From Desulfuromusa sp. (GTDB lineage Bacteria; Desulfobacterota; Desulfuromonadia; Desulfuromonadales; Geopsychrobacteraceae), in assembly GCA_029934095.1 (NCBI GenBank), contig JAOZMV010000010.1, positions 1 to 16,003 on the forward strand: a DNA stretch of 16,003 bases, in the 5' to 3' direction. Below the pieces are notes generated by a model, which searched no databases, was not told the DNA's origin, and was given only the letters and a program-made list of their open reading frames with translations. The translations under genes were made by a program, and so were the position numbers. This document shows positions 2,869 through 16,003 of the stretch, piece by piece. Position 1 is the first letter of the stretch. Every line of letters starts with the position of its first letter.

Positions 2869-3133
2869 AGCCACTCCTTTTTTGTGACTATTTTGAACTG
2901 AGCTTGACCAGTCAGGTATCTGATCAAAACCGGTCATTGCCAGATTTGTTTAAAACCAACATCATTATATCTCTACTAAAAAAAGACAGGGATATATGCC
3001 AACCCCGTTTTGACAGGATATTTGACAAACTGATTAATACGGTTGCCGAGTAACACTATTAGCTGCCACAACTGCTAAATTTTAAAAGGGCGGCTTAGAA
3101 GGAATCAAACTTGACAGTAACAATCATCTCAAC
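2869..3133. other. Intergenic spacer between convergent genes
   Basis: This 265-base AT-rich spacer lies between the 3' ends of the dynamin-like gene (+) and the MOSC gene (-). I see no open frame of useful length, no tRNA and no GC-rich hairpin followed by a T run, so the terminators for the two converging transcripts are not evident. TTGACA occurs three times (3010-3015, 3022-3027, 3111-3116), but without a convincing -10 at the right distance and with no gene to drive on that strand. Confidence 0.5.
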
Positions 3134-3565
3134 TTACAAAAGATGAAATTCATCTCCAGGGTACACGCGTCCTCCTTGTAGAACTTTGGCGAAGATCCCT
3201 TCCTTCGGCATCACGCAATCTCCAGCCTGATGATAGATGGCGCAGCGGTTGTGACATTCCTTGCCAATCTGGGTGACCTCAAGCAACACTTCACCGATCT
3301 GCAGTTGAGCACCGACCGGCAGCTTCGGCAAGTCGATCCCATCAGTGGTCAGGTTCTCGGCAAAATCGCCGTTATCGACATCCAGCCCCATCTTGCGCAT
3401 TTTATCGATACTCTCTTTGGCCAGCAGGCTGACCTGCCGATGCCAGTCTCCTGCGTGGGCATCACCAACAATGCCGTGGTCTTCCCGTAGTTCGATCTGC
3501 CCGACAGGGGTTTTCCGCTCGCCTTTATTTTTGCTGATACAGACTGCCACGATCTGAGCTGTCAT
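3134..3565 (-). CDS. MOSC-domain protein, molybdenum-cofactor associated
   Basis: A 143-residue stand-alone MOSC domain (named for the MoCo sulfurase C-terminus). The family binds or transfers sulfur or molybdenum-pterin ligands; the substrate of small free MOSC proteins like this is generally unknown. Visible family features are GIVGDAHAG (31-39), DFAENLTT (67-74) and the conserved cysteine C104 in GKECHNRC, the candidate sulfur carrier. I start at 3565 rather than the in-frame ATG at 3610: an ideal GGAGG lies 8 bases before this ATG, the MOSC homology begins here, and the longer version would overlap the end of moaA. It follows moaA by 4 bases at the end of the mod/mob/moe/moa series, so a molybdenum-cofactor role is inferred from context. 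Unlike its two upstream neighbours it looks intact. Confidence 0.85.
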   Translation of the reverse strand: MTAQIVAVCISKNKGERKTPVGQIELREDHGIVGDAHAGDWHRQVSLLAKESIDKMRKMGLDVDNGDFAENLTTDGIDLPKLPVGAQLQIGEVLLEVTQIGKECHNRCAIYHQAGDCVMPKEGIFAKVLQGGRVYPGDEFHLL

Positions 3566-3569
3566 TTGT

Positions 3570-3865
3570 TTAACCTCCGATACTCGCCATACAGAAGGCA
3601 GCGGTTTCATGCTGCTTTTGGCTGAGTTGATGTTGTGAGGGTTTACCGTCGATAACCTGCTGTAGTGCGTTTCTGAGATCGATCGCCGATTTTCGCAGGT
3701 ATGGCTTCAGGTCCAGTCCATCATCGCTGAGCAGGCAACTCTTTGCCAAACCGGTCGAGGTGACCCGAATCCGGTTACCGGCATACAGTAACGACAACGC
3801 AGATTACAGCGATTGGTGATCGACAAGCGTAAGTAGTTTATGTTTCGTCCGTGAGAGTCCTGCAT
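3570..3865 (-). pseudogene. moaA: moaA remnant (GTP 3',8-cyclase) with large internal deletion and frameshift
   Basis: MoaA is the radical-SAM enzyme that starts molybdenum-cofactor synthesis from GTP. Reading from ATG 3865 (AAGGA upstream), the first 29 residues are a clear MoaA start, including [18 protein letters not shown] with the CxxxCxxC cluster motif (C20, C24, C27). Just after CMP, near 3778, the sequence jumps to a MoaA C-terminus in another frame: NRIRVTSTG, the third cysteine of the second Fe-S cluster (KSCLLSDD), and the conserved terminal Gly-Gly (MASIGG) before TAA at 3570. The original frame ends at 3707 after 52 residues. About 99 of the usual ~330 residues remain, so roughly 230 codons, the barrel core and the first two cysteines of the second cluster, are gone. 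The junction sits in CCGGTAACCGG. The remnant cannot make an active enzyme. A misassembly is the alternative. Confidence 0.88.
3573..3578 (-). promoter_or_regulatory. Ribosome binding site of the MOSC gene, inside the moaA stop region
   Basis: GGAGGT on the minus strand is both the Shine-Dalgarno sequence for the MOSC ATG at 3565 and the final Gly-Gly codon pair of the moaA C-terminal frame, immediately followed by its TAA. It decides the MOSC start and implies translational coupling to moaA in the ancestral operon. Confidence 0.75.
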
Positions 3866-3877
3866 AATATCCTGTCC

Positions 3878-5073
3878 TTAAAGAGCTCGCAGCAGGATGA
3901 TGTCAACCTCATCCCCTGCCGCGAGATCAGGGCTGCCAATCGCCACCGGCAGGAGTGCCTGAGCTGCCTGCAGGCTGCGGTTCTGACCTGAGCCCTGTCG
4001 CTGAAAGGGAATAAAACTTAGTAGCCCTGCATTGACAGATAACTTTCCCCAGAGGAATTGCTGGCGTTTACCACCCCCCTTAACAGGTTCTTCAGCCTGA
4101 CGCGGAGAACTGGCGCCAGCGGATTGGGGCAGCCGGAGAGTTTGCTCAGCGCCGGCCGGGTGAAAAGTTCAAAGGTTGCAGCAGTGGCGGCCGGGTTGCC
4201 AGGCAATCCAAAGTAGGGAACATTATTCAGGGTGCCAAACAGAAGTGGCTTGCCCGGCTTGATCGCGACTTTCCAGAATTTACGCACGAACTCGTGTTGC
4301 TCCAAAGACTGCAGGACAAGATCTTTTTCTCCAACAGAAACACCGCCGGTTGATATAATCAGATCACTCTTCATGGCTAGATCAAGCAGTCTGGAGAGGT
4401 CTGAATCCTGATCTTCTCCAATTCCCAGCGGGATAGGCGTGCAACCACACTCGCGTACGCGGGCAACGAGATACTGCAAGTTTGAATTAACGATCTGCCC
4501 CTCCCCCGGTTCTTGACCCAATTCGACCAGTTCGTCCCCCGTAGAAAAGATCGCTACTCGCGGCCTCGAGATGGCGTGAACCCGTTCAACGCCAGCACTT
4601 GCCAGCAATCCTATCGCACCAGCTTGTAGCTGCTCACCGGCTTCCAGCAGAACCTCTTCAGTGTGGTATTCTTCACCGCAGTAGCGAACGTGCTGTCCCT
4701 TTGACACCGCCTGTTTGAGAATCAGTTGCCCATTCTCTTCGGTGCAATCTTCGATTGGTATTACGGTATCCGCCCCCTCTGGCAGCGATGCACCGGTGGT
4801 AATGTGGATTGCCTCGCCCGGCGTCAAGCTACCGTTAAAGGGATGACCGGCATAGGCCACGCCGACAATTTCTAACCGCTTCGAACTTCCTACCGAAATT
4901 CCGGCCACGGCAAAGCCGTCCATCGCCGAGTTATCCCAACGGGGCATATCCCATCTGGCTTTGACCGGGGCGGCCAGAAACAGTCCAGCCGCGGGCGGAA
5001 GTGGCAGCTGTTGCGATGGCAGGGGGACGATGGTTTCCAGTACCTGTTGCAGGGCATCCTCGTAGCTCAGCAT
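3878..5073 (-). pseudogene. moeA: moeA with a one-base frameshift (molybdopterin molybdenumtransferase)
   Basis: MoeA inserts molybdate into adenylylated molybdopterin. The frame from ATG 5073 carries DNSAMDG (47-53), STGDE (177-181), STGGVSVG (241-248) and PGNP (291-294), but stops at 4018 after 351 residues. The -1 frame downstream encodes a convincing domain IV: KRQQFLWGKL, FIPFQRQGSGQNRSLQA and AAGDEVDIILLRAL, ending at TAA 3878. The frames meet most naturally at a run of six G (C run 4074-4079 on the plus strand), after R332. One extra G there gives an uninterrupted 398-residue protein, a normal MoeA length. The intact-frame product would have 19 junk residues and no domain IV. The start overlaps the end of modC by 7 bases, with GAGGAG just upstream. 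A sequencing error in the homopolymer, or frameshifting during expression, are alternatives to true inactivation. Confidence 0.88.
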
Positions 5074-6155
5074 GACAACTCCTCACGGTTTTCGATTCTA
5101 GATTCACGAGCCTTGAACACGGCCCAAAGTTGCTCTCCCGCTTGTGGTTCGCCGAGGGCCTGATAACCACGGCTACTGATTTCGGCAACCAACTTATCCT
5201 CTCGCGCCAGGGTAATTCGCACCCGATCGCCGCGTATGACCACATCGAGTACCTTACCGTGGAGATGATTGCGCGGGCTGCCGACCGGAAGGTCACGGTA
5301 CAGGGCGATATCCCACGGAAAGACGGTCAGGACTGCCGCCCCCGGAGAAACATGTTCGAAGGGGGCGAGGAAAGAGAGTCCGCCATGACTGCAGAAAAAC
5401 AACTTTCCGTCACAGCGTTGCACTTTTCCTGGAATATAATTGACACCGACAAAACGGGCGACGAATTCACTGGTCGGCTCGCGTAACAGTTGATGGAAGC
5501 TGCCACTCTGTACAATTCGGCCCTGTTCCATAACCGCGACCCGCTTGCGGAAGTAAGCGACTTCCTCGGCATCGTGGGTTACCAATAAGGTCGGAATTTT
5601 CAATTCGATCAGGATCGTGTGCAGCCAGCGACGGATTTCGCTTCGCGCGGCGGGATCGAGGGCTGTCGTTGGTTCATCGAGCAGCAGCAGCTCCGGATCG
5701 GTTGCCAGGGTTCGAGCCAGTGCCACCTTCTGTTGTTCGCCACCCGAAAGGGTGGCAACGTTGCGGTCGACCAGATGTTCGATGGCGAGTTTTTGCAACA
5801 GCTGATTGATGCGACGTTGCCGCTCTCCGTGGCCGGTACCACGCATTTTCAGACCGAAACCGATGTTACCGCTCACGTCGAGATGCGGGAAAAGGGCCAG
5901 ATCCTGAAAAACCATACCGATTCGCCGCTGCTCGGGTGGCAGGTCGATCTTTTGTGTTGAATCAAACAGGCAGCTTCCTCCCAGCATGATATGCCCGGAG
6001 TAAGGCTTGTTGAGCCCGGACAGCAAGCGCAGCAGACTGCTTTTGCCGGCACCGTTCGGGCCAAGCAGCACGGTGACTCCGGGGGCGACCGAAAGCTCCA
6101 CGTCCAGTTCGAAATGTGCCAAAGGATAGCGCAGTTTGAAGGCCAGATTGCTCAT
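5067..6155 (-). CDS. modC: Molybdate ABC transporter ATP-binding protein
   Basis: ATPase subunit that powers molybdate import by ModABC at the inner membrane. The 362-residue protein has Walker A GPNGAGKSS (32-40), ABC signature LSGGEQQK (136-143), Walker B ending LLLLDEP (156-162) and the H-loop THD (H194). The last ~110 residues after VNYIPGKV form the TOBE-type domain typical of ModC, which binds oxyanion and tunes transport. I start at 6155, where ATG overlaps the modB stop by 4 bases (ATGA). The same frame stays open upstream to 6428, but that extension overlaps modB, is arginine-rich and shows no family similarity. The 3' end overlaps moeA by 7 bases. Sulfate or phosphate ATPases are excluded by the modA/modB context and the TOBE tail. 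Confidence 0.93.
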   Translation of the reverse strand: MSNLAFKLRYPLAHFELDVELSVAPGVTVLLGPNGAGKSSLLRLLSGLNKPYSGHIMLGGSCLFDSTQKIDLPPEQRRIGMVFQDLALFPHLDVSGNIGFGLKMRGTGHGERQRRINQLLQKLAIEHLVDRNVATLSGGEQQKVALARTLATDPELLLLDEPTTALDPAARSEIRRWLHTILIELKIPTLLVTHDAEEVAYFRKRVAVMEQGRIVQSGSFHQLLREPTSEFVARFVGVNYIPGKVQRCDGKLFFCSHGGLSFLAPFEHVSPGAAVLTVFPWDIALYRDLPVGSPRNHLHGKVLDVVIRGDRVRITLAREDKLVAEISSRGYQALGEPQAGEQLWAVFKARESRIENREELSC

Positions 6156-6943
6156 ATCGGCCTTTCTCGCGGTGCCAGCATGTGGACCATAGCCAGCAGC
6201 AATAAAGCGATCAGCAGCAATAAAGTCCCTAGTCCAAACGCCTGTTGAGGATCGCTCTCGAAGGCGTTGTAGATCGCCAGCGACAAGGTTTGAGTGCGGC
6301 CCGGCAGGTTGCCGGCAAACAGGATGATTACGCCGAACAGACCGATCCCTTGCGCCAAAGCCATGATCCCTTCGGCAAACAGACCGCGGCGGACCACCGG
6401 TAAAGACACATGCCAGAATGTTTGCCATGGCGAGGCACCGAGCAGCAGCGCAGTCTCTTCCAGTTTGTAATCGATGCTATCGAAAAGGACCGTACAGCGG
6501 CGGACGAAAAAAGGGGTGACGACGAAGAGGATGGCGATCACCACGGCAATCAGGGTGAAGGGGATGCGCACCCCGATGTCGGCCAGCAGCTCACCGAGCA
6601 GTCCCCGGCGGCCAAAAGCAAGCAGCAGCGCCAGTCCGGCGACTACCGGGGGCATTACCATCGGTAGTTCCAGCAGGATTTCCAGGGTTCGGCGCAGACG
6701 GCCTTTACAGCGGGACAAGCCGTAGGCTGAAGGTAGCCCGAGCAGGAAAATCAGCGGCAGTGCCAGCAGTGATGACAGAAAGGTGATCCAGAGGGCCTGT
6801 AAAATCTCTGTATTCCCCAGCAGTTGCAGCAGCTCGCTCGGACTGCTGGCCAGCAACAGGGCAAGGATCGGCAGCAGGATCAGGGCCGCCAGCAGCAACC
6901 CGCTACCTGCTAAAAACAGGCTAAAGAGGCGTGGTCGTTTCAC
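6152..6943 (-). CDS. modB: Molybdate ABC transporter permease
   Basis: Inner-membrane channel of the molybdate importer. The 263-residue protein is strongly hydrophobic with about six membrane segments; the first is near 10-32. The coupling-loop motif that docks on ModC is clear: EETALLLGASPWQTFWHVSLP, the EAA-type loop ending in LP. ELPMVMPPVVAGLALL is typical of ModB. It is slightly longer than E. coli ModB (about 229 residues), with the extra length at the termini. The start is GTG at 6943, overlapping the modA stop by 4 bases (GTGA); the end overlaps modC by 4 bases. This tight packing indicates translational coupling of modA, modB and modC. Confidence 0.93.
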   Translation of the reverse strand: MKRPRLFSLFLAGSGLLLAALILLPILALLLASSPSELLQLLGNTEILQALWITFLSSLLALPLIFLLGLPSAYGLSRCKGRLRRTLEILLELPMVMPPVVAGLALLLAFGRRGLLGELLADIGVRIPFTLIAVVIAILFVVTPFFVRRCTVLFDSIDYKLEETALLLGASPWQTFWHVSLPVVRRGLFAEGIMALAQGIGLFGVIILFAGNLPGRTQTLSLAIYNAFESDPQQAFGLGTLLLLIALLLLAMVHMLAPRERPI

Positions 6944-7725
6944 TGTTTGGCTCCGCAGAGAAAACCATGTTGCGCAAAACTATTCTGTGCCCAGGGGTCG
7001 TACAGAAAAGTGATGAAATCATCGACCCGTGTTTCTGTTTTTTTGACTTTCGCCAGCAGGTATATTGCCAGAGGGTTGTGTTTCTGCGGTAGGGCGATAG
7101 CGGTTAATTTATGGCTATTTGCAGGGGTGAGATCGCTCTGGTAGACAATTCCAGCATCCACTTCGCCGAGCAGTAGTTTGGCGACTATTGCCTTAACCCG
7201 GCCCTCTTCACTGACAATATTTCCTTTGATCTTGCCGACCAGTGTCGGACCGTAGGCCGAATCGGTAGCCAGTCTTGCGAACAGTTGCCGGGTATAAAAA
7301 CCGATCGGCACTTGTCGGTTGCCGATTGCCAGCAACAGTTCGGGACGAGCCAGGTCCGCTATGCTTGTAAGACGTGGCTGCAAATCAGCACGAGCAGCAA
7401 GGACCAGTTGGTTGCCTAACAGTGGCTGCGGAGAATTCACGAGTTCTTGACGTTGCAATCTCTCCATGACCGGTCGGTTGGCAGAAATAAACAGGTCGGC
7501 CGGGGCGCCCTGCTCAATCTGGGTGGCCAAAGTCTGGCTGCCGGCAAAATTCAGCAGTACTTTGTCGCCGGGAAACTTGGTTTCGTAAGATCGAGCGATC
7601 TTGCTTAACGCCTCGCTGAGTGATGATGCCGCAAAAACTGACAGTTCAGCTCCACTTGCCGGGACGGCACAGATCAGCAGCAACAAAAGAGTGTTGATAA
7701 GCAGTTGGTTAATTACGGCGATCAT
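6940..7725 (-). CDS. modA: Molybdate-binding periplasmic protein
   Basis: Captures molybdate (or tungstate) in the periplasm and delivers it to ModBC. The 261-residue protein starts with a Sec signal peptide: a hydrophobic stretch at about 7-21 and likely cleavage after ASGA near residue 26. The mature part carries ModA oxyanion-site landmarks: VFAASSLSEAL (30-40), NFAGSQTLATQIEQGAPADLFIS (59-81) and a later GIVYQSD tyrosine region. No lipobox cysteine appears at the cleavage site, so it should be soluble. ATG at 7725 overlaps the modE stop by 4 bases (ATGA), and its own stop overlaps modB. Whether it favours molybdate or tungstate cannot be told from sequence; the nar context favours molybdate. 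Confidence 0.94.
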   Translation of the reverse strand: MIAVINQLLINTLLLLLICAVPASGAELSVFAASSLSEALSKIARSYETKFPGDKVLLNFAGSQTLATQIEQGAPADLFISANRPVMERLQRQELVNSPQPLLGNQLVLAARADLQPRLTSIADLARPELLLAIGNRQVPIGFYTRQLFARLATDSAYGPTLVGKIKGNIVSEEGRVKAIVAKLLLGEVDAGIVYQSDLTPANSHKLTAIALPQKHNPLAIYLLAKVKKTETRVDDFITFLYDPWAQNSFAQHGFLCGAKQ

Positions 7726-8060
7726 AGAAAGAGATCCTCGAAACTCCGGTCGGCTGCCGAATTGACCTGCTTGCGCAATTCCCGGAATTTTTTCAGCAGT
7801 TCCCGGGCCGCCTCAGTCAACAAGGTCGCACCGCCGCCTTTGCCTCCCAGACGCCGTTCCAGCAATGGAAAAGGAGCGTGCTCCTCCATCACCTGCAACT
7901 GTGACCAGGCTTTGCGGTATGAGATGTCGAGCTGTTTGGCCGCTGCGTTGATGGAGCCAGTATTCTCTATGGCAGCTAATATCCGGTAACGGCCATCACC
8001 GAGAAACGGTTGACCGTCAAATTCGAGCCAGACCTTAGAGCGGACGCGGAATTCATTCAT
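7722..8060 (-). CDS. modE: ModE-like DNA-binding regulator, N-terminal domain only
   Basis: A 112-residue protein equivalent to the DNA-binding half of ModE. It has the winged helix-turn-helix (GSINAAAKQLDISYRKAWSQL, about 35-55) and the ModE-characteristic glycine loop LGGKGGGATLL (71-81). E. coli ModE has two further TOBE/MOP domains that bind molybdate; here the protein ends soon after a helix (ELLKKFRELRKQV), so it has dimerisation capacity at most and no visible molybdate sensor. Its stop is natural, overlapping modA by 4 bases, so it is not an obvious truncation. Its start overlaps the mobAB stop by 4 bases. Such single-domain forms are known in other bacteria; how molybdenum status is sensed here is unclear. 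It may instead respond through the TOBE domain of ModC or act constitutively; both are speculation. Confidence 0.85.
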   Translation of the reverse strand: MNEFRVRSKVWLEFDGQPFLGDGRYRILAAIENTGSINAAAKQLDISYRKAWSQLQVMEEHAPFPLLERRLGGKGGGATLLTEAARELLKKFRELRKQVNSAADRSFEDLFL

Positions 8061-9178
8061 GTCAGAAATCGTTTAATAATAAGATCGCAGAGACCGGTGG
8101 CATCATTGATATCAAACACTGGCACATCGAGTTCGAGTGGACTGTCGGAGGCGACGCCAAACAGGCTCGGGTCATATTCCTCTCCACGGCAGAGCAGTTT
8201 TTCACTACGTTCGCGGCGGTGAACCTCGATCTTCGGCATGTTGCTGCGTTTGAAACCTTCGGTCAGAACAATATCGAGATCAGCGCAATAGTTGGCGATG
8301 GTTTCAGTCAGCAACGGTTCTTGATCGGGCGGGTTCTGTTTGACCATGGCAACCTTGTCCGGCGAGGTAATCAACATAGTGTCGGCTCCGGCTTGGGTCA
8401 ACCGCCAGGAATCCTTCCCTTCGTGGTCGATGCTGAAACTGTGCGCATCATGCTTGACAGCGCCAACTTTATAGCCACGCTGCTTAAGTTCAGCGATCAG
8501 TTTTTCCAGCAAGGTGGTTTTGCCAGTGCCGCTTTTGGCAACGATGGAAATGACGGGTGGGGTCATCGGTTTCTCCTCCATGATTTTCGCCAGTTGCTCC
8601 GGGGTGTTGATATTGATCAATGATCGTTGCCAGCCAACTGGCAATTCCGGTGGGTCGAGATAGCGGATGTTGATGCGCTGATAGAAGTCATAGATGCGAA
8701 ACTGGTTCTGTTGCAGCATCGCTTCCATCTCCGGCAGACAGTTTTTGTGGTAGAGGGCAAAGACTGGCTCGTACCCTGCGAAAGTGCGTGGTACCACCGC
8801 ATCAAACCCGGTTCGGCATTGTAATAAACGTTCGACAATCCGTTGATCCGGGTAGGGCATGTCGCAGGGGGCGACAAAGATCCAGTCGGTGGTTGCAGCC
8901 TGTAGCCCGGTGTGCAGGCCGCCCAAAGCACTGCCCGGATAGATGTCAGCAATCGACGGGATGGCGGGACGCATCAAGTCGGGCCGATCTCCGGCAATAA
9001 TGACCGTTGCAAAATATTCTTGCAGAAGTTCCAGCGATCGGTCGAACAGGGTTTTGCCCGAAAACTCCAATTGCGCCTTGTCCTGTCCCATGCGTCGGCT
9101 CTTGCCACCAGCCAGCAGTACCCCGGTGACATCGGTATAACGGCTGTCTGCTGCTATTTCGTTGTGCGGATTTTGCAT
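8057..9178 (-). CDS. mobAB: MobA-MobB fusion: molybdenum cofactor guanylyltransferase plus GTP-binding partner
   Basis: Converts Mo-molybdopterin to the bis-guanine dinucleotide form used by NarG-type enzymes. Residues about 16-200 are MobA: LLAGGKSRRMGQDKA (21-35) binds GTP and carries the catalytic residues, CDMP (105-108) is the metal/substrate loop, and NINTP (189-193) is typical near the MobA end. After a very short linker, residues about 207-373 are MobB, with P-loop VAKSGTGKTT (213-222), VGAVKHDAHSF (238-248) and TEGFKRS...PKIEVHR near the middle. In E. coli these are separate genes. The start at 9178 is only 13 bases past the T run of the upstream hairpin, with a weak GGGA as ribosome site, so there is no room for its own promoter between them. 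The stop overlaps modE by 4 bases. Confidence 0.93.
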   Translation of the reverse strand: MQNPHNEIAADSRYTDVTGVLLAGGKSRRMGQDKAQLEFSGKTLFDRSLELLQEYFATVIIAGDRPDLMRPAIPSIADIYPGSALGGLHTGLQAATTDWIFVAPCDMPYPDQRIVERLLQCRTGFDAVVPRTFAGYEPVFALYHKNCLPEMEAMLQQNQFRIYDFYQRINIRYLDPPELPVGWQRSLININTPEQLAKIMEEKPMTPPVISIVAKSGTGKTTLLEKLIAELKQRGYKVGAVKHDAHSFSIDHEGKDSWRLTQAGADTMLITSPDKVAMVKQNPPDQEPLLTETIANYCADLDIVLTEGFKRSNMPKIEVHRRERSEKLLCRGEEYDPSLFGVASDSPLELDVPVFDINDATGLCDLIIKRFLT

Positions 9179-9244: not shown

Positions 9245-10849
9245 TCAGGGATTCTTAATATAAGCATTTTTTCTGGTGTAGAACCACCAGTTTAAAACCA
9301 GGCAGACAAAATAGAAGACGGCAAATCCATACAGGGCATATTCCGGGGTGGTCGCTTTGATCTGCTCACCAAACACCTTGGGGATGATAAAAGCGCCGTA
9401 GGCTGCAACCGCCGAGGTCCAACCAAGAACCGGTCCGGCCTGTTCGGCGTTGAAGATCATGGCGACGGAACGGAAGGTTGAGCCGTTGCCGACTCCGGTG
9501 GCGGCGAAGAGGATGATGAACAACAGCAGGAAAGGGTAGAAAAAACTTTCCGGCGTTGCTGAGCCGTAAGCGGCCTTCATGAAGTAGGCACAACCGAGCG
9601 CGGAGATAATCATCACGATTGAGACCCATTGGGTGACGATAGCGCCGCCGAGCTTGTCGGCGATCTTACCGCCGACCGGGCGGATCAGAGCACCGATGAA
9701 GGGCCCCATCCAGGCAAACATCAGCGCACTGGGGCCGTTGGGGTTGATCGTATTGTGGGTCATGACACCATCAACCATGATATGTGAAAAACCAAAGATG
9801 ACCTTGATCGACAGGGCAAAGGCAGCCGAGTAGCCAATAAAGGAGCCGAAGGTCATGGTGTAGATAACGGTCATCGCCCAGGTGTGCTTATTTTCAAAAA
9901 TCTTGTATTGCCGGTCGAGATTTTCACGCAGCCCACCGCTGGTGAGGTACTTCATACCGAAGACCGTCGCGGCAATAACCAGCGGCAGTACGATCCATTT
10001 ACTGAGCAGGCCGAGTCCGACCGGGGCTGGTAGCATCAGATAGAGTCCGGCGACAGCAGTGGAGAAAGCGATCAGCAGCAGGCCGGTAATCATCGCGAAC
10101 GACTTGCCGGTGGAACCGAGGTTGGGGGTGACTGTAGCGGTTTTGATGTTGTTCATGCCGAAGAAACCAGCAAAGGCCAATGGGATCAGAAAGATCAGCC
10201 AGATATAACCGGCATTATGGATATAGGTCTCGGTCCCGGCCGGAATCTTGCCGATCAGGGTGCCGCTGGTGTTGATCAATTGCTGCGGAGTGCCACCAAA
10301 CAGACCGAAGGTCATCGCCAGCGGGATCAGTATCTGCATGGTGGTGACGCCAAAGTTGCCCAATCCGGCATTTAAGCCCAACGAGGTCCCCTGGACTTTT
10401 TTCGGGAAGAAAAAACTGATATTCGACATCGAAGAGGCGAAGTTGCCGCCACCGAAACCGGAGAGCAGAGCGAGGAAGTAGTAAACCTCGATCGGGGTGT
10501 TGATGTTCTGCAGGGCAATGCCGGTACCGACCGCCGGGATCATCAGCAGAGCAGTAGTGAAAAAGATGGTGTTCCGCCCACCGGCGATACGGATCAGGAA
10601 AGAACTGGGAATCCGTAGCGTCGCGCCGGTCAGTCCAGCAATCGCCGACAAGGTGAACAGTTGAGACTGGCTGAAGGGATAGCCGAGGTTGATCATCTGC
10701 ACGGTGATGATGCCCCAATACAGCCAGACGGCGAAACCGCAGAGCAGACTGGGGATCGAAATCCACAGGTTGCGGGTGGCTATTTTTTTACCGGTGGAAT
10801 TCCAGAACTGTTCATCTTCAACATCCCACTTATCAAGATTGATCGACAT
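9245..10849 (-). CDS. narK2: Nitrate/nitrite transporter, NarK2 (E. coli NarK-like) type
   Basis: Major facilitator of the nitrate/nitrite porter family, expected to exchange external nitrate for internal nitrite. The 534-residue protein aligns by eye with E. coli NarK throughout: RNLWISIP, the substrate arginines R79 (TGATLRIP) and R390 (GALIRPVGG), the first nitrate signature region GLNAGLGNFG following FFFPKK, and a second near AFIIPKVFG. It is about 70 residues longer than E. coli NarK, mainly from an extra hydrophobic region (about 250-302) between the usual TM6 and TM7, perhaps two more membrane spans. I use ATG 10849, because AGGAGG (10856-10861) sits 6 bases upstream and the homology to NarK begins there; the in-frame start at 10876 lies before this site. 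The gene is 39 bases downstream of narK1. Confidence 0.92.
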   Translation of the reverse strand: MSINLDKWDVEDEQFWNSTGKKIATRNLWISIPSLLCGFAVWLYWGIITVQMINLGYPFSQSQLFTLSAIAGLTGATLRIPSSFLIRIAGGRNTIFFTTALLMIPAVGTGIALQNINTPIEVYYFLALLSGFGGGNFASSMSNISFFFPKKVQGTSLGLNAGLGNFGVTTMQILIPLAMTFGLFGGTPQQLINTSGTLIGKIPAGTETYIHNAGYIWLIFLIPLAFAGFFGMNNIKTATVTPNLGSTGKSFAMITGLLLIAFSTAVAGLYLMLPAPVGLGLLSKWIVLPLVIAATVFGMKYLTSGGLRENLDRQYKIFENKHTWAMTVIYTMTFGSFIGYSAAFALSIKVIFGFSHIMVDGVMTHNTINPNGPSALMFAWMGPFIGALIRPVGGKIADKLGGAIVTQWVSIVMIISALGCAYFMKAAYGSATPESFFYPFLLLFIILFAATGVGNGSTFRSVAMIFNAEQAGPVLGWTSAVAAYGAFIIPKVFGEQIKATTPEYALYGFAVFYFVCLVLNWWFYTRKNAYIKNP

Positions 10850-10855
10850 GTATTG

Positions 10856-10861
10856 CCTCCT
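10856..10861 (-). promoter_or_regulatory. Ribosome binding site of narK2
   Basis: A full AGGAGG on the minus strand lies 6 bases before the ATG at 10849. It favours that ATG over the upstream in-frame start at 10876 and is the strongest such site in this gene series. Confidence 0.75.
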
Positions 10862-10877
10862 GACTAAATCATCCAAA

Positions 10878-10892
10878 ATAAAATTATTTTAT
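10878..10892. repeat. AT-only palindrome at the narK1/narK2 junction
   Basis: ATAAAAT, one central base, then ATTTTAT: a perfect 7-bp inverted repeat that overlaps the narK1 stop codon (10889-10891) in the 39-base gap before narK2. It could be a weak protein site or chance in AT-rich spacer DNA. It does not match a known FNR or NarL site. Confidence 0.35.
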
Positions 10893-12379
10893 CGCTCTTC
10901 AATCTTCTGCATATCTGCAGGGTGTTTATCCTTCATCATTTTCCTGGTGGTCAGATGCAACCAGATCAGACAGACCAGAGATAGTATGAACATGAACATC
11001 CAACAGCTGGTCCATAACCCGGTATATTCGAGAAGATAACCAAAGATGATCGGGCAGAAGAAGCCACCCAGACCACCGAGCACGCCAACCATACCGCCGA
11101 CCACACCAACCTCATCCGGAAAATAATCGGGAATCAGTTTATAAACCGCTGCCTTGCCGATCCCCCAGATACTGCCGAGCAGGATAATGAATCCGGCAAA
11201 AATCCAGACATTTGCCTGAAAAAAGATCCGCGTCACACCTTTTGCCAACAGTTCCTTCTTTTTAACCTTCTGACCAACTTCAACCACCGGTTCCTGCCAG
11301 GCCTGCTTGCTCGGCAGAATCAGCATCTGGTTGTCAAAATTATCCAGCGGTTCGGGCCTGAGATTAACCCTGTAGGACTTGCTGTCAATCACCACTGTGC
11401 CAGCTGAGACTGCAGTAACCACTCCGGCTCGCTTGGCCATGATGCCCCGTCCTGGAGAGTAGATATCCATCTTTGGAATGATAACCAGGAAGCTGATCAC
11501 CACCGAAGCACCGAGAACCCAGAACATGACCGTTCGACCACCAAGTTTGTCGGACATCCAGCCACCGAGGGCCCGGATCACTCCGGAGGGCAGGCTGAAC
11601 ATCGACGCAAAAATACCGGCGGTGACCAACGGCAGATAGTAGACATTGACAAAATAGGGAACCAGCCATTGTGAAAAGGCAACGAAGCAACCGAACACCA
11701 GAAAATAATAGAGACCAAACCGCCAGACTCTCACATCTTTCAGCGGGATCAGCATCTGTCCAAACGACTTGCCCGATGAAGCAGGTTTCTTGTTTTCGGA
11801 GAAGATAAAGAAGATTACGCCCATGGTGGCCAGCATTGCCGCGTAGTAGATCGGCAGCTCGCGCCAGCCCTCAATGTTAACGCCATTGTTGGTCAAACGG
11901 TTCAGCAGGGTCGGCGCAAACAGAGTTGTCAGGGCCGCCCCGGCATTTCCTGCCCCAAAGATCCCCAGTGCCGTTCCTTGCCGCTCGCGAGGATACCAGA
12001 CCGAAGAAAAGGCTATGCCGATGGAAAAACTGACCCCGACCAGACCGAAGCCGAAACTACACAGCGCAAAGGTGGTGAAACTATCTGCTTTTGAGAGCAG
12101 AAACATGGGAATGGCGCAGACCAGCAGCAGCGTACCGAAAATTGGCTTGCCGCCGAATTTATCGGTCAACATCCCGGCTGGCAACCTGAAAAGCGAACCG
12201 GTCAGTACCGGGATGCCCATCAGCCAGCCGATCTCGATCGGCCCCCAGTCAAAAACCTGATTATCGACCAGGAAGGTCACCAGCACGCCATTGAACATCC
12301 AGACGGCAAAGCAAACCGTAAAGGCCAGCGTGTTCAGAAAGAGAACTTTATGTGACTTTGCAGTTGCAACTTCTAGCAT
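10889..12379 (-). CDS. narK1: Nitrate transporter, NarK1 type, with an inserted soluble domain
   Basis: Major facilitator of the nitrate/nitrite porter family; NarK1-type members typically import nitrate with protons. The 496-residue protein has the two substrate arginines, R65 (GSLFRLPAG) and R269 (GVIRALGG), each followed by the MFS loop D-K-x-G-G, and the glycine-rich signatures FGAGNAGAAL (141-150) and VGVLGGLGGFF (431-441). Between membrane segments, residues about 303-388 form a hydrophilic insert not found in typical NarK proteins. It contains GVVTAVSAGTVVI and VVEVGQKVKKKELLAKG, which resemble a barrel-sandwich (lipoyl-like) fold. ATG 12379 has AAGGG about 7 bases upstream. The gene lies 62 bases after narI, in the usual nar order. 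Confidence 0.9.
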   Translation of the reverse strand: MLEVATAKSHKVLFLNTLAFTVCFAVWMFNGVLVTFLVDNQVFDWGPIEIGWLMGIPVLTGSLFRLPAGMLTDKFGGKPIFGTLLLVCAIPMFLLSKADSFTTFALCSFGFGLVGVSFSIGIAFSSVWYPRERQGTALGIFGAGNAGAALTTLFAPTLLNRLTNNGVNIEGWRELPIYYAAMLATMGVIFFIFSENKKPASSGKSFGQMLIPLKDVRVWRFGLYYFLVFGCFVAFSQWLVPYFVNVYYLPLVTAGIFASMFSLPSGVIRALGGWMSDKLGGRTVMFWVLGASVVISFLVIIPKMDIYSPGRGIMAKRAGVVTAVSAGTVVIDSKSYRVNLRPEPLDNFDNQMLILPSKQAWQEPVVEVGQKVKKKELLAKGVTRIFFQANVWIFAGFIILLGSIWGIGKAAVYKLIPDYFPDEVGVVGGMVGVLGGLGGFFCPIIFGYLLEYTGLWTSCWMFMFILSLVCLIWLHLTTRKMMKDKHPADMQKIEER

Positions 12380-12441
12380 TGGCAGCCCTTTTCGCTGATG
12401 GAGTCAGTCTCTTATCCGCTACGATCTCTAGTCTGTTAGCA

Positions 12442-13119
12442 TCAAACCTGATTCCGCTGCCGATACCAGACCACCAGTTGGTAGGGGCGACTGATATAGG
12501 CCAAGGGAATACTGACCACATGGACCAGCCGTGAAAAAGGAAACAGCGCGACCAGGAAAAAAGCATTGACTGCATGCAGCTTGACCACAAGCGGCATGCT
12601 CGCCAGATATTGAATTTTCGGGCTGAAGGAGACCAGCGACCAGAGCCAGGGCGAGACCGTATGCAGATACCAGAAACCACCCCAACGCATGGTGATGGCG
12701 ATAAAGACGCCAGTTGCGACCTGGATCAGCAGGGCGACCAGCAAAATCCAGTCGACCGTAGTGGTTACTGCGCTGACCCGGGCGTTACCGACACGCCGGA
12801 GAATCAGCACCAGCATGGAGATGGTGCTGACCACGCCGAGCGCCATCCCGGTGACCTCCAGCAGGTAGAGGCGGCCCGGCGCACCGAGCAAGGCTCCCCA
12901 AGCTGATGGGAAAAGAAAAGCGAGCAAGTGGGCCAGCAGTACCAGCAGGATAGCGTAGTGCCAGGGGACCGAGCCCCAGAATAGCGCGCGGCTCTCCAGA
13001 AACTGGGACGATTGTGACGAATAGGAGTAGCGGTCGAAGCAGTAGCGATAAATACCGACAGCGACAGCAAGGGCGACGGCCACATAGGGAAATACGCCGA
13101 AGAGAATCATATCGATCAT
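12442..13119 (-). CDS. narI: Respiratory nitrate reductase gamma subunit (cytochrome b)
   Basis: Membrane diheme cytochrome b that takes electrons from quinol at the periplasmic side and passes them to NarH. The 225 residues match E. coli NarI in length and layout, with about five membrane spans. All four heme-ligand histidines are visible: H54 and H64 (PWHYAILLVLLAH), and H182 and H200 (KLHAVNAFF ... RLVHVVSIP), close to E. coli positions 56, 66, 187 and 205. The start ATG overlaps the narJ stop by 4 bases (ATGA), with AAAGGAGC upstream within narJ, showing translational coupling. Confidence 0.95.
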   Translation of the reverse strand: MIDMILFGVFPYVAVALAVAVGIYRYCFDRYSYSSQSSQFLESRALFWGSVPWHYAILLVLLAHLLAFLFPSAWGALLGAPGRLYLLEVTGMALGVVSTISMLVLILRRVGNARVSAVTTTVDWILLVALLIQVATGVFIAITMRWGGFWYLHTVSPWLWSLVSFSPKIQYLASMPLVVKLHAVNAFFLVALFPFSRLVHVVSIPLAYISRPYQLVVWYRQRNQV

Positions 13120-13661
13120 GATAGTGCTCCTTTTTCTGCGCTGCTTTCGTGCAAAAAACTGTGCAAGGCCTTGAGCAGCCCCTTATAGGGGTGGTCATCG
13201 TTATCGATGCCGGCGATGATCTTTTCCACTGCCGGTAACAGGCCATCGCAGATCAGCTCCTGACGGCAGATTTGATCGCCAGTGGTGCCGATGAAACGCA
13301 GCATTTCGCCCAGATGATCTGGCAGCTCAATCCCCGGATTGAAATCGTGCTCGCGATAGATTTGATGCATCTTCATCAGAAATATGCTGCGTTTCTGGTT
13401 TTCGCCGCAGAGCTGATAGCCGACATACGGGTGACAGACTGGTTGTAGATCAAAGGTTGCGGTGAACAGTTCCTCGATCTGTGCCTGATCGCTTGTTTCC
13501 AACAGATCGACGAAGCTTTGCAGTTGCGGGGCAACTTCGGGCCGGTTTTCTTGCAGCAGTTCCCGGCAGGTGGCAGCGGTTGTCTGCACCCCTGCTTCCG
13601 GGTAGCTGAGCAGCGTGGCGAACTGACGGCAAATATCCTGATGGGTCTGTAGACTGGTCAT
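13116..13661 (-). CDS. narJ: Nitrate reductase assembly chaperone
   Basis: Dedicated chaperone of the TorD/NarJ family. It binds apo-NarG in the cytoplasm until the molybdenum cofactor and Fe-S cluster are in place, and is not part of the final enzyme. The ~181-residue helical protein carries the family hallmark ELFTATFDLQPVCHPYVGYQL and a later KGLLKALHSFL segment. I use ATG 13661, 2 bases after the narH stop. An in-frame GTG at 13670 would add three residues and overlap narH; neither has a strong ribosome site (GGTGG only), so the start is uncertain by nine bases. The end overlaps narI by 4 bases. Confidence 0.9.
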   Translation of the reverse strand: MTSLQTHQDICRQFATLLSYPEAGVQTTAATCRELLQENRPEVAPQLQSFVDLLETSDQAQIEELFTATFDLQPVCHPYVGYQLCGENQKRSIFLMKMHQIYREHDFNPGIELPDHLGEMLRFIGTTGDQICRQELICDGLLPAVEKIIAGIDNDDHPYKGLLKALHSFLHESSAEKGALS

Positions 13662-13663
13662 AA

Positions 13664-15151
13664 TTACCACCGTCTCTTCGGCGGTTGTCGTTTGCCGAAG
13701 CCCATTTCCTGTTTGTAGGCCTCGGGGTCCATCCCGGCTTCGACCGCTTGTTCGCGCAGCATCGGTGGAATCACGATCCGCTGCTTGATACTGGTCAGCG
13801 AGGTCATGCGGAAAATCGCTTCGATCGTTTCTGCGCTGATTCCGGCAATCTCCCGCGCCTTGGCCACCTCTTCATCGGCAAGATCGTTAACGGTTATCTT
13901 GCGGCGTTGAATCCGCACGGCAATCAGCTTGCGATAAACCTCTTTGACCGCTTCTTCATTACCACCGGCAAACATTCCGGCGAGATACTTCAGTGGCAGG
14001 CGGGCTTGTTCGAGACTGCTGAAAAAGCCATCGGCCAACTGATGGATACCCTGGGTTTCTTTCGACAGTACCGGCAACAATGGCGGCACATAAAATAGCA
14101 TCGGCAGGGTGCGGAACTCGGGATGCAGCGGCAGAGCGATGCCCCACTCCTTGACAAATTTATAGGTCGGCGACTTCTGCGCGGCATCCAGAACTTCGGT
14201 CGCAATCCCGGCTTTTTTTGCCTCCTCTATGACCTGTGGATCGAAGGGGTCGAGGATCATCTCGCGTTGCGCTGCGGCCAGTTCCGCATCTTCGAGTTTG
14301 GCCGTTGCGGCAAGGCGGTCGGCGTCGTAAAGTAAAACACCCAGGTAGCGGATTCGGCCGACACAGGAATGGAAACAGCCCGGAGCCTCACCGGCTTCCT
14401 GACGCGGGTAGCAGAGTATGCACTTTTCTGATTTGCCACTGGTCCAGCCGTAATAGGTTTTTTTATAGGGGCAGGCCGAAACACACATCCGCCAGCCACG
14501 GCACTTGTCCTGATTGATCAGCACAATCCCGTCTTCACCCCGTTTGTAGATCGCGCCGGAGGGACAAGCAGCCACACAAGCGGGATTGAGGCAGTGGTTA
14601 CAGATTCGCGGCAGATAGAACATGACCATTTTTTCGATGGCGAACATCTGCTGCTGCTCTTCTTCACTTAACTGCACAACCCCCGGATCATTGGCGGCAT
14701 AGATATTTGAGCCGGAGAGATCGTCATCCCAGTTGGGACCTGCTTCGATCTTCATTGGCTTGCCGCTGATCATCGACACCGGGCGGGCGGTCGGTTGATC
14801 ATTGCCAGCCGGGGCGTTGGTTAAATCCTGATATTTAAAAGTGAACGGCTCGTAGTAGTCGTCCATGGTCGGCAAATCGGGGTTATGGAAAATTCTGCCG
14901 AGTGAAGCCGCCTTGCTGCCCATTTTAAGTTGCAGATCCGAACCTTTCTTTTCCCAGCCGCCTTTATATTGCTGCTGGTCTTCCCATTTGGTCGGATAGC
15001 CGGTTCCCGGTTTGGTTTCAACGTTGTTCCACCACATGTATTCGCTGCCTTTGCGATCAGTCCAGATATTTTTGCAGGCGATACTGCAAGTATGGCAGCC
15101 GATACATTTGTCGAGATGGAAAACTGAGGATACCTGTGCACGTATATTCAT
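13664..15151 (-). CDS. narH: Respiratory nitrate reductase beta subunit (Fe-S protein)
   Basis: Carries electrons from NarI heme to NarG through four Fe-S clusters. All ligands are present and, counted from MNIRAQ, fall at the same positions as in E. coli NarH: C16/19/22/26, C184/187/192/196, C217/223/227 with W220, and C244/247/259/263. W220 (CRGWRMC) is the normal substitution that makes the [3Fe-4S] cluster, not a defect. The 495-residue length fits. I choose ATG 15151 because AAGGAG (15160-15165) is 8 bases away; the other ATG at 15157 is only 2 bases from it. narG ends 28 bases upstream and narJ starts 2 bases downstream. Confidence 0.96.
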   Translation of the reverse strand: MNIRAQVSSVFHLDKCIGCHTCSIACKNIWTDRKGSEYMWWNNVETKPGTGYPTKWEDQQQYKGGWEKKGSDLQLKMGSKAASLGRIFHNPDLPTMDDYYEPFTFKYQDLTNAPAGNDQPTARPVSMISGKPMKIEAGPNWDDDLSGSNIYAANDPGVVQLSEEEQQQMFAIEKMVMFYLPRICNHCLNPACVAACPSGAIYKRGEDGIVLINQDKCRGWRMCVSACPYKKTYYGWTSGKSEKCILCYPRQEAGEAPGCFHSCVGRIRYLGVLLYDADRLAATAKLEDAELAAAQREMILDPFDPQVIEEAKKAGIATEVLDAAQKSPTYKFVKEWGIALPLHPEFRTLPMLFYVPPLLPVLSKETQGIHQLADGFFSSLEQARLPLKYLAGMFAGGNEEAVKEVYRKLIAVRIQRRKITVNDLADEEVAKAREIAGISAETIEAIFRMTSLTSIKQRIVIPPMLREQAVEAGMDPEAYKQEMGFGKRQPPKRRW

Positions 15152-15159
15152 TGTCATAG

Positions 15160-15165
15160 CTCCTT
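15160..15165 (-). promoter_or_regulatory. Ribosome binding site of narH
   Basis: AAGGAG on the minus strand. Its spacing is 2 bases to the ATG at 15157 and 8 bases to the ATG at 15151, which makes the second ATG the better narH start. That start also matches the N-terminus of E. coli NarH. Confidence 0.7.
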
Positions 15166-15179
15166 AATCCGTGCCGGGA

Positions 15180-16003
15180 TTACCAGCTCGGCTCCCCTTT
15201 GAGTTTGCGAACCAGAATGAAGGTGTCCCGGTTAGCACCGGTCGGCCCCCAATAGTTCCAGCCGTAGGTGAACTGGCCGTAGCCGCCGAGCATCAGATTC
15301 GGCTTTAGACGGATCCGGTTGAGACTGTTATGGCCGCCGGCGCGTTTGTTGCCACGTAGCGGTGACTTGGGAACACCGATGGTGCGTTCCGGAGCATGGT
15401 AGAGGAAGGAGATCCCTTCCGGCAGCCGGGCACTGACTACCGCTCGGGTGACAACGACGCCATGATCGTTGTAAACCTCGACCCAATCGTTGTCGATCAC
15501 ACCGATCTTTGCCGCATCCTTATCGTTAATCCAGAAAGGGTGACAGCCGCGCGACAGAGTCAACATCCGGTGGTTATCACCATAGGTCGAATGGATTCCC
15601 CATTTCCCATGCGGAGTCAGGTAGTTGAGCATGATGCTCTGCTCATCTGATTTACTGACCACCAGATCCTGCAATGAGCTGGGATCGGGCTTCGGTTTGT
15701 AGGTCGGCAGATGTTCGCCGTAGGCGATGTAACCCTCATGATCCAGATAGAAATGCTGACGTCCGGTCAGGGTCCGCCAGGGGACCAGCCGTTCGACATT
15801 GAGAGTGTAGGCAGCATAAGCCCGACCATTGTTGGTCAATCCGCTCCAGCAAGGGCTGGTCAACAGCCGTTTCGGTTGCCGATCCAGTTCTGCAAAAGTG
15901 GTGCGCACAGCACGTGTATCAGCTGCCAGATCGACCAGCGGCATGCCGACCTTCTCCTCTTTGGCCAGAAAGGCCCGGTGGGCGATTTCACCATTGGTTT
16001 CCG
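15180..16003 (-). CDS. narG: Respiratory nitrate reductase alpha subunit, C-terminal part
   Basis: Only the last ~273 codons are in the window; the gene runs off the right edge and the frame is open to base 16003. The visible protein matches the C-terminal region of E. coli NarG, the Mo-bis-MGD catalytic subunit that reduces nitrate in the cytoplasm: [51 protein letters not shown] and [14 protein letters not shown]. This part helps bind the molybdopterin dinucleotide; the active-site aspartate and N-terminal Fe-S ligands lie outside. It is the most upstream visible gene of the minus-strand series, so its promoter and any FNR/NarL sites are beyond the window. Confidence 0.95.

Follow-up and report, generated by a model that had tools for sequence, protein, structure and literature searches.

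The stretch of DNA analysed here, referred to as the window, is 16,003 nucleotides long and is an entire contig (C303) of a draft Desulfuromusa sp. assembly, which has 1,779,390 bases in 309 contigs and is 78.73% complete and 0.3% contaminated. Among the 40 relatives searched, the closest DNA match to positions 3100-5100 of the window was found in the same genus, in Desulfuromusa kysingii (genome G001). The window holds a nitrate-reductase and molybdenum gene cluster that runs on the minus strand in the order narG (3' part), narH, narJ, narI, two narK-type transporter genes, a mobA-mobB fusion, modE, modA, modB, modC, moeA, moaA and a gene for a MOSC-domain protein. In the assembly, both moeA and moaA are broken. 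The features are as follows.

9245..16001, minus strand: two narK-type transporters, narI, narJ, narH and the 3' part of narG (NCBIfam, Pfam, TIGR01580 positions 962-1229)
5067..9178, minus strand: modC, modB, modA, modE (DNA-binding domain only) and the mobA-mobB fusion (NCBIfam)
4018..5073, minus strand: moeA open reading frame with an early end, the frame changing near 4090 (4087-4093); PF03453 and PF00994 matched, PF03454 did not
3878..4090, minus strand: out-of-frame remainder of moeA (C-terminal domain); residues 329-398 of homologue P0121 at 4090-3881, 98.6% identity
3773..3865, minus strand: N-terminal piece of moaA with the start codon and the radical-SAM cysteine motif CNLRCRYC; TIGR02666 positions 1-31, 50.2 bits, E 2.1e-13
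3777..3778, minus strand: moaA deletion junction, at which relatives have 670-676 further bases (673 in D. kysingii); the D. kysingii alignment breaks at 3776/3780
3570..3776, minus strand: C-terminal piece of moaA, out of frame with the N-terminal one and ending in GG and a stop; TIGR02666 positions 264-336 at 3776-3573, 37.4 bits, E 1.3e-9
3134..3565, minus strand: intact gene for a MOSC-domain protein (PF03473), 79% identity to D. kysingii, start chosen by reading

The narG gene is divided over two contigs, with 15180-16001 in the window and another piece on contig C95 of the same draft (G000:C95), and model positions 807-961 lie on neither. The NarK-type transporter at 10889-12379 matched the NarK family in two stretches, separated by an insert that was put at very roughly 80-100 residues by reading, and ModE at 7722-8060 has 112 residues and matched the DNA-binding domain model alone. 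Rfam gave no match at gathering threshold within the window.

The moaA gene is present as two end pieces in different frames

The MoaA family model TIGR02666 matched the locus in two pieces, neither of which reached its curated cut-off of 284.05 bits. The N-terminal piece has the radical-SAM CxxxCxxC motif as CNLRCRYC at 3808-3785, and its frame ends after 52 codons (counted by eye). The C-terminal piece lies in a 75-residue open reading frame, which matched Pfam Mob_synth_C at positions 76-127 of 128 and keeps the terminal Gly-Gly (...ASIGG followed by the stop); no ribosome-binding site was seen for this piece on reading. The two pieces are in different frames and are joined at about 3777/3778. 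The radical-SAM barrel (TIGR02666 model positions 32-263) is absent from the window, and neither a family search nor a protein query from a near relative found it elsewhere in the draft. The C-terminal cluster cysteines of MoaA form the motif C-x2-C-x13-C; here, two of the three are gone and the last one is left, with the cysteine that precedes NRIR lost at the join. The junction (3772-3782) also forms a short inverted repeat, CCGGT-A-ACCGG, which is probably a matter of chance.

The size of the missing stretch was taken from 68 relatives whose moaA has the same motifs. The distance from breakpoint to breakpoint is 676 bases in 46 of these genes, 673 in 21 and 670 in one, and in D. kysingii (L033) it is 673. 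All three distances are a multiple of three plus one, so the frame is shifted whichever applies. The assembly shows an internal deletion of about 673 bases, which removed the radical-SAM barrel and shifted the moaA frame. The sequence-only reading had described moaA as cut down to its two ends in different frames by an internal deletion of about 700 bases; the two-piece family match and the frames bear this out, and the 670-676 bases held by the relatives come close to the size that it gave. Like MoaA proteins of the TIGR02666 family, the remnant has both protein ends, the motif CNxRCxYC, the terminal GG and a position between moeA and the MOSC gene; unlike them, it misses about 673 bases of the middle, has its ends in different frames and scores under the family cut-off.

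Both ends of the gene are well preserved. When the fragments were aligned with 139 MoaA proteins, as the same reading had proposed, and the columns conserved in 95% or more of them were scored, the N-terminal piece kept 16 of 17 and the C-terminal piece 18 of 18, or 34 of 35 together. These 139 proteins were the hits of two protein-set queries (the best 120 of 6404, and 19 new ones, P0241-P0259, among the best 120 of 1651), both with scoring limited to the candidates with the most shared words. Because 34 of the 35 highly conserved positions are kept, the deletion appears recent, which agrees with the age suggested earlier; judged from these residues, the event is recent or else absent from the cell. 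A substitution in the N-terminal piece (TNRC) falls at a column that holds D in 136 of the 139 aligned proteins and N, as here, in 1; it was weighed as a possible sign of decay. An intact MoaA of the same species was also sought in the large protein set. The nearest among the best 120 of 6404 hits, P0011, shares 81 of 97 residues with the two pieces (28 of 29 with the N-terminal piece) and is probably from another species; P0241-P0259 entered the column count only.

The adjoining moeA changes frame

About 310 bases upstream of the moaA junction lies a second lesion, which the sequence-only reading overlooked. In the assembly, the adjoining moeA has changed frame and lost its last domain, PF03454, which the listed MoeA homologues carry. 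The closest homologue among the matches listed, P0121, is a protein of 398 residues, in frame and with PF03454. At columns at least 95% conserved in 120 MoeA proteins, the first moeA piece departs at 2 of 109 (residues 339 and 343) and the second at 9 of 25, inside its first 25 residues, and every one of these departures sits in an out-of-frame tail. The window moeA differs from P0121 at 25 positions in the first 160 residues, at 5 in the next 167 and at 1 in the 70 past the frame change. Because so close a homologue is in frame, with a single difference in the last 70 residues, the moeA lesion would be very recent or not in the cell.

The identity to P0121 is uneven along moeA (3878-5073), which could reflect recombination, a mosaic of strains or a less conserved domain. 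A switch of strains at the frame change was considered and rejected, as the identity shifts near residue 160 and not there.

Intact counterparts in relatives

In D. kysingii, the order moeA-moaA-MOSC is intact (L046), with full-length open reading frames for moaA (322 residues) and moeA (402 residues), and this moaA is the nearest copy among the genus genomes compared. The window shares the gene order, and unlike D. kysingii it has both genes broken. We further surveyed moaA at 80 loci with a related MOSC gene, the best 80 of at least 568 confirmed stretches, counting as full-length a single match that spans at least residues 15-295 of 322. A full-length moaA adjoins the MOSC gene at 69 loci, lies elsewhere on the stretch at 6 and is absent from 5, and a partial moaA was found at none of the 80 (matches above 120 bits). 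The 5 loci without moaA, and not the other 75, were searched again at a low threshold (E up to 1); no weak moaA pieces were found, while the window, used as a control, returned both of its pieces. Thus moaA is as expected of a pseudogene, in that the counterpart at the same place is intact in relatives and broken here.

The MOSC gene itself has a ribosome-binding-like site, GGAGG, within the final codons of moaA. Because its start and this site are kept in the surviving end of moaA, MOSC can probably still be translated. The MOSC gene occurs in 2 of the 14 genus genomes, the draft that holds the window and D. kysingii, i.e. in 1 of 13 genus-mates. The moaA pieces agree with the MOSC-linked copy of D. 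kysingii at 67 of 97 residues and with five other copies in the genus at 46 to 50 of 97, and by this comparison the broken moaA is of the MOSC-linked kind, most likely a second copy.

Extra copies of these genes next to a nitrate reductase have a precedent. The Geobacter metallireducens genome has three copies each of moaA and moeA, and one pair, at the end of the nar operon, has been suggested to support nitrate reduction (PMC2700814). Like that nar-linked moeA-2/moaA-2 pair, the extra moeA and moaA in the window belong to a nitrate-reductase operon that has two narK genes (PMC2700814). The G. metallireducens pair is described as cofactor-synthesis genes and not as broken, whereas both genes are broken in the window, and the cluster here adds mobAB, modEABC and MOSC (PMC2700814).

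Other cofactor genes in the draft and in the genus

The sequence-only reading had also proposed a search of the whole genome for a second moaA. Family search and protein query found no full-length moaA elsewhere in the draft, which is 78.73% complete, and moaC was not found in it either, with about a fifth of the genome missing. Other radical-SAM hits, on contigs C235, C113 and C7, are open frames of 326-352 residues that are unlike MoaA on reading; one of them (L005) is presumably a lysine 2,3-aminomutase, as it reads like one.

On contig C92, which is 3,190 bases long, are moaE and a second moeA that is intact, both named by homology and reading; in the 163 bases between the contig end and moaE, on the upstream side, no moaA end was seen. 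Seven genus-mates (G001, G005, G006, G008, G009, G010 and G012) have a moaA upstream of moaE, at a distance of about 20 to 710 bases, and in three of them (G006, G008 and G009) this moaA is interrupted by a contig end. In G004, moaA is followed by moeA with no moaE match between. Counted by the family cut-off, moaA is found in 7 of the 13 genus-mates (G001, G004, G005, G008, G010, G011 and G012), and none was shown in G002 (96% complete), G007 and G013, so it is not unusual for these drafts to show no moaA. For moaC, the count is 11 of the 14 genus genomes, and 8 of 8 among those at least 90% complete and at most 5% contaminated. A narG over the cut-off is found in 2 of the 14 (G001 and G010), with weak matches in two more and the two pieces in the draft of the window.

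Discussion

We regard the broken moaA as either an ordinary pseudogene or a fault in the local assembly. We consider it rather probable that it is a recently inactivated pseudogene of moaA, the gene for GTP 3',8-cyclase, at the distal end of the nitrate-reductase and molybdenum cluster, that moeA beside it is broken as well, that the pair is probably spare, and that cofactor synthesis probably continues from the C92 locus. The broken moaA and moeA would then be spare copies, the synthesis going on from the locus of moaE and the second moeA. Continued synthesis is probable because that second moeA is intact and next to moaE, on a contig that ends where the genus-mates carry their other moaA; since neither a full-length moaA nor moaC was found in the draft, we infer it rather than observe it. 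The sequence-only reading had proposed that the deletion takes away the catalytic core of the first step in making the cofactor. This holds for the copy in the window, and it does not carry over to the organism, as the draft is fragmentary and has moaE and an intact second moeA on C92.

Somewhat less probable is an assembly or library fault, in which low coverage or a chimera in this part of the draft produced both lesions and the genes are intact in the cell. The assembly is fragmentary, as its contig number and completeness show, the two lesions adjoin, and on reading and family match every other gene in the window appears full-length except narG, which is cut by the contig end. The homologue P0121 is close and in frame, and in the drafts of four genus-mates (G003, G006, G008 and G009) moaA is cut by a contig end. 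Several results speak against such a fault. If a repeat had collapsed, the two breakpoints should have in common a word as long as those used by an assembler. In 68 relatives, the longest word common to both breakpoint regions, taken as 30 bases to each side, measured 4 to 9 bases; this result applies to the relatives' sequence, from which the lost stretch of this species may differ. The two moaA ends are collinear. Over 40 bases, the N side of the window matches the N side of eight of these relatives at 32-34 positions, as against 4-8 for the sequence that precedes their C side; for the C side of the window, the counts are 24-32 with the C side of the relatives and 8-14 with the sequence that follows their N side. 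As a control on the draft as a whole, its 35 matches to PF00005 and 45 to PF00072 were inspected, and none has an internal stop within the matched domains, to which this control applies. Five matches that score above the cut-off and are clearly truncated (C308, C199, C108, C66 and C97) all lie at contig ends; further partial matches, all of them weak, were seen on C147 and, below the cut-off, on C121, C13 and C225. The draft is thus not riddled with frameshifts, since no internal stops were seen and the truncated matches checked lie at contig ends.

That the organism lost molybdenum-cofactor synthesis entirely, leaving its nitrate reductase without cofactor, is very unlikely. It would agree with the failure to find another moaA or any moaC, but the draft lacks about a fifth of the genome, moaC is found in every one of the more complete genus genomes, and the draft keeps moaE, the intact second moeA, the narG piece on C95 (a 785-residue open frame) and another molybdopterin oxidoreductase match on C14 (an 852-residue open frame). 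Even more improbable, to the point that we give it hardly any weight, is that the shortened gene encodes a small protein with a function or a MoaA split in two. The conserved residues retained at both ends would suit such a product, but the frames differ, the barrel is missing, two of the three C-terminal cluster cysteines are gone, and no short form was seen at the 80 MOSC loci (the best 80 of at least 568 stretches).

Returning to the reading of moaA as a recent pseudogene in a probably spare pair, it is possible, and we put it forward tentatively, that both lesions are real and mark a recent and ongoing loss of nitrate-linked cofactor genes in this lineage, with the nitrate reductase then relying on the general cofactor supply or falling from use. 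If the lesions are real, they would provide a small example of the decay of spare cofactor genes. Regardless, a broken moaA beside narGHJI in a draft genome is likely to be misread as loss of cofactor synthesis by the organism, which it does not imply, because relatives hold more than one moaA and more than one moeA.
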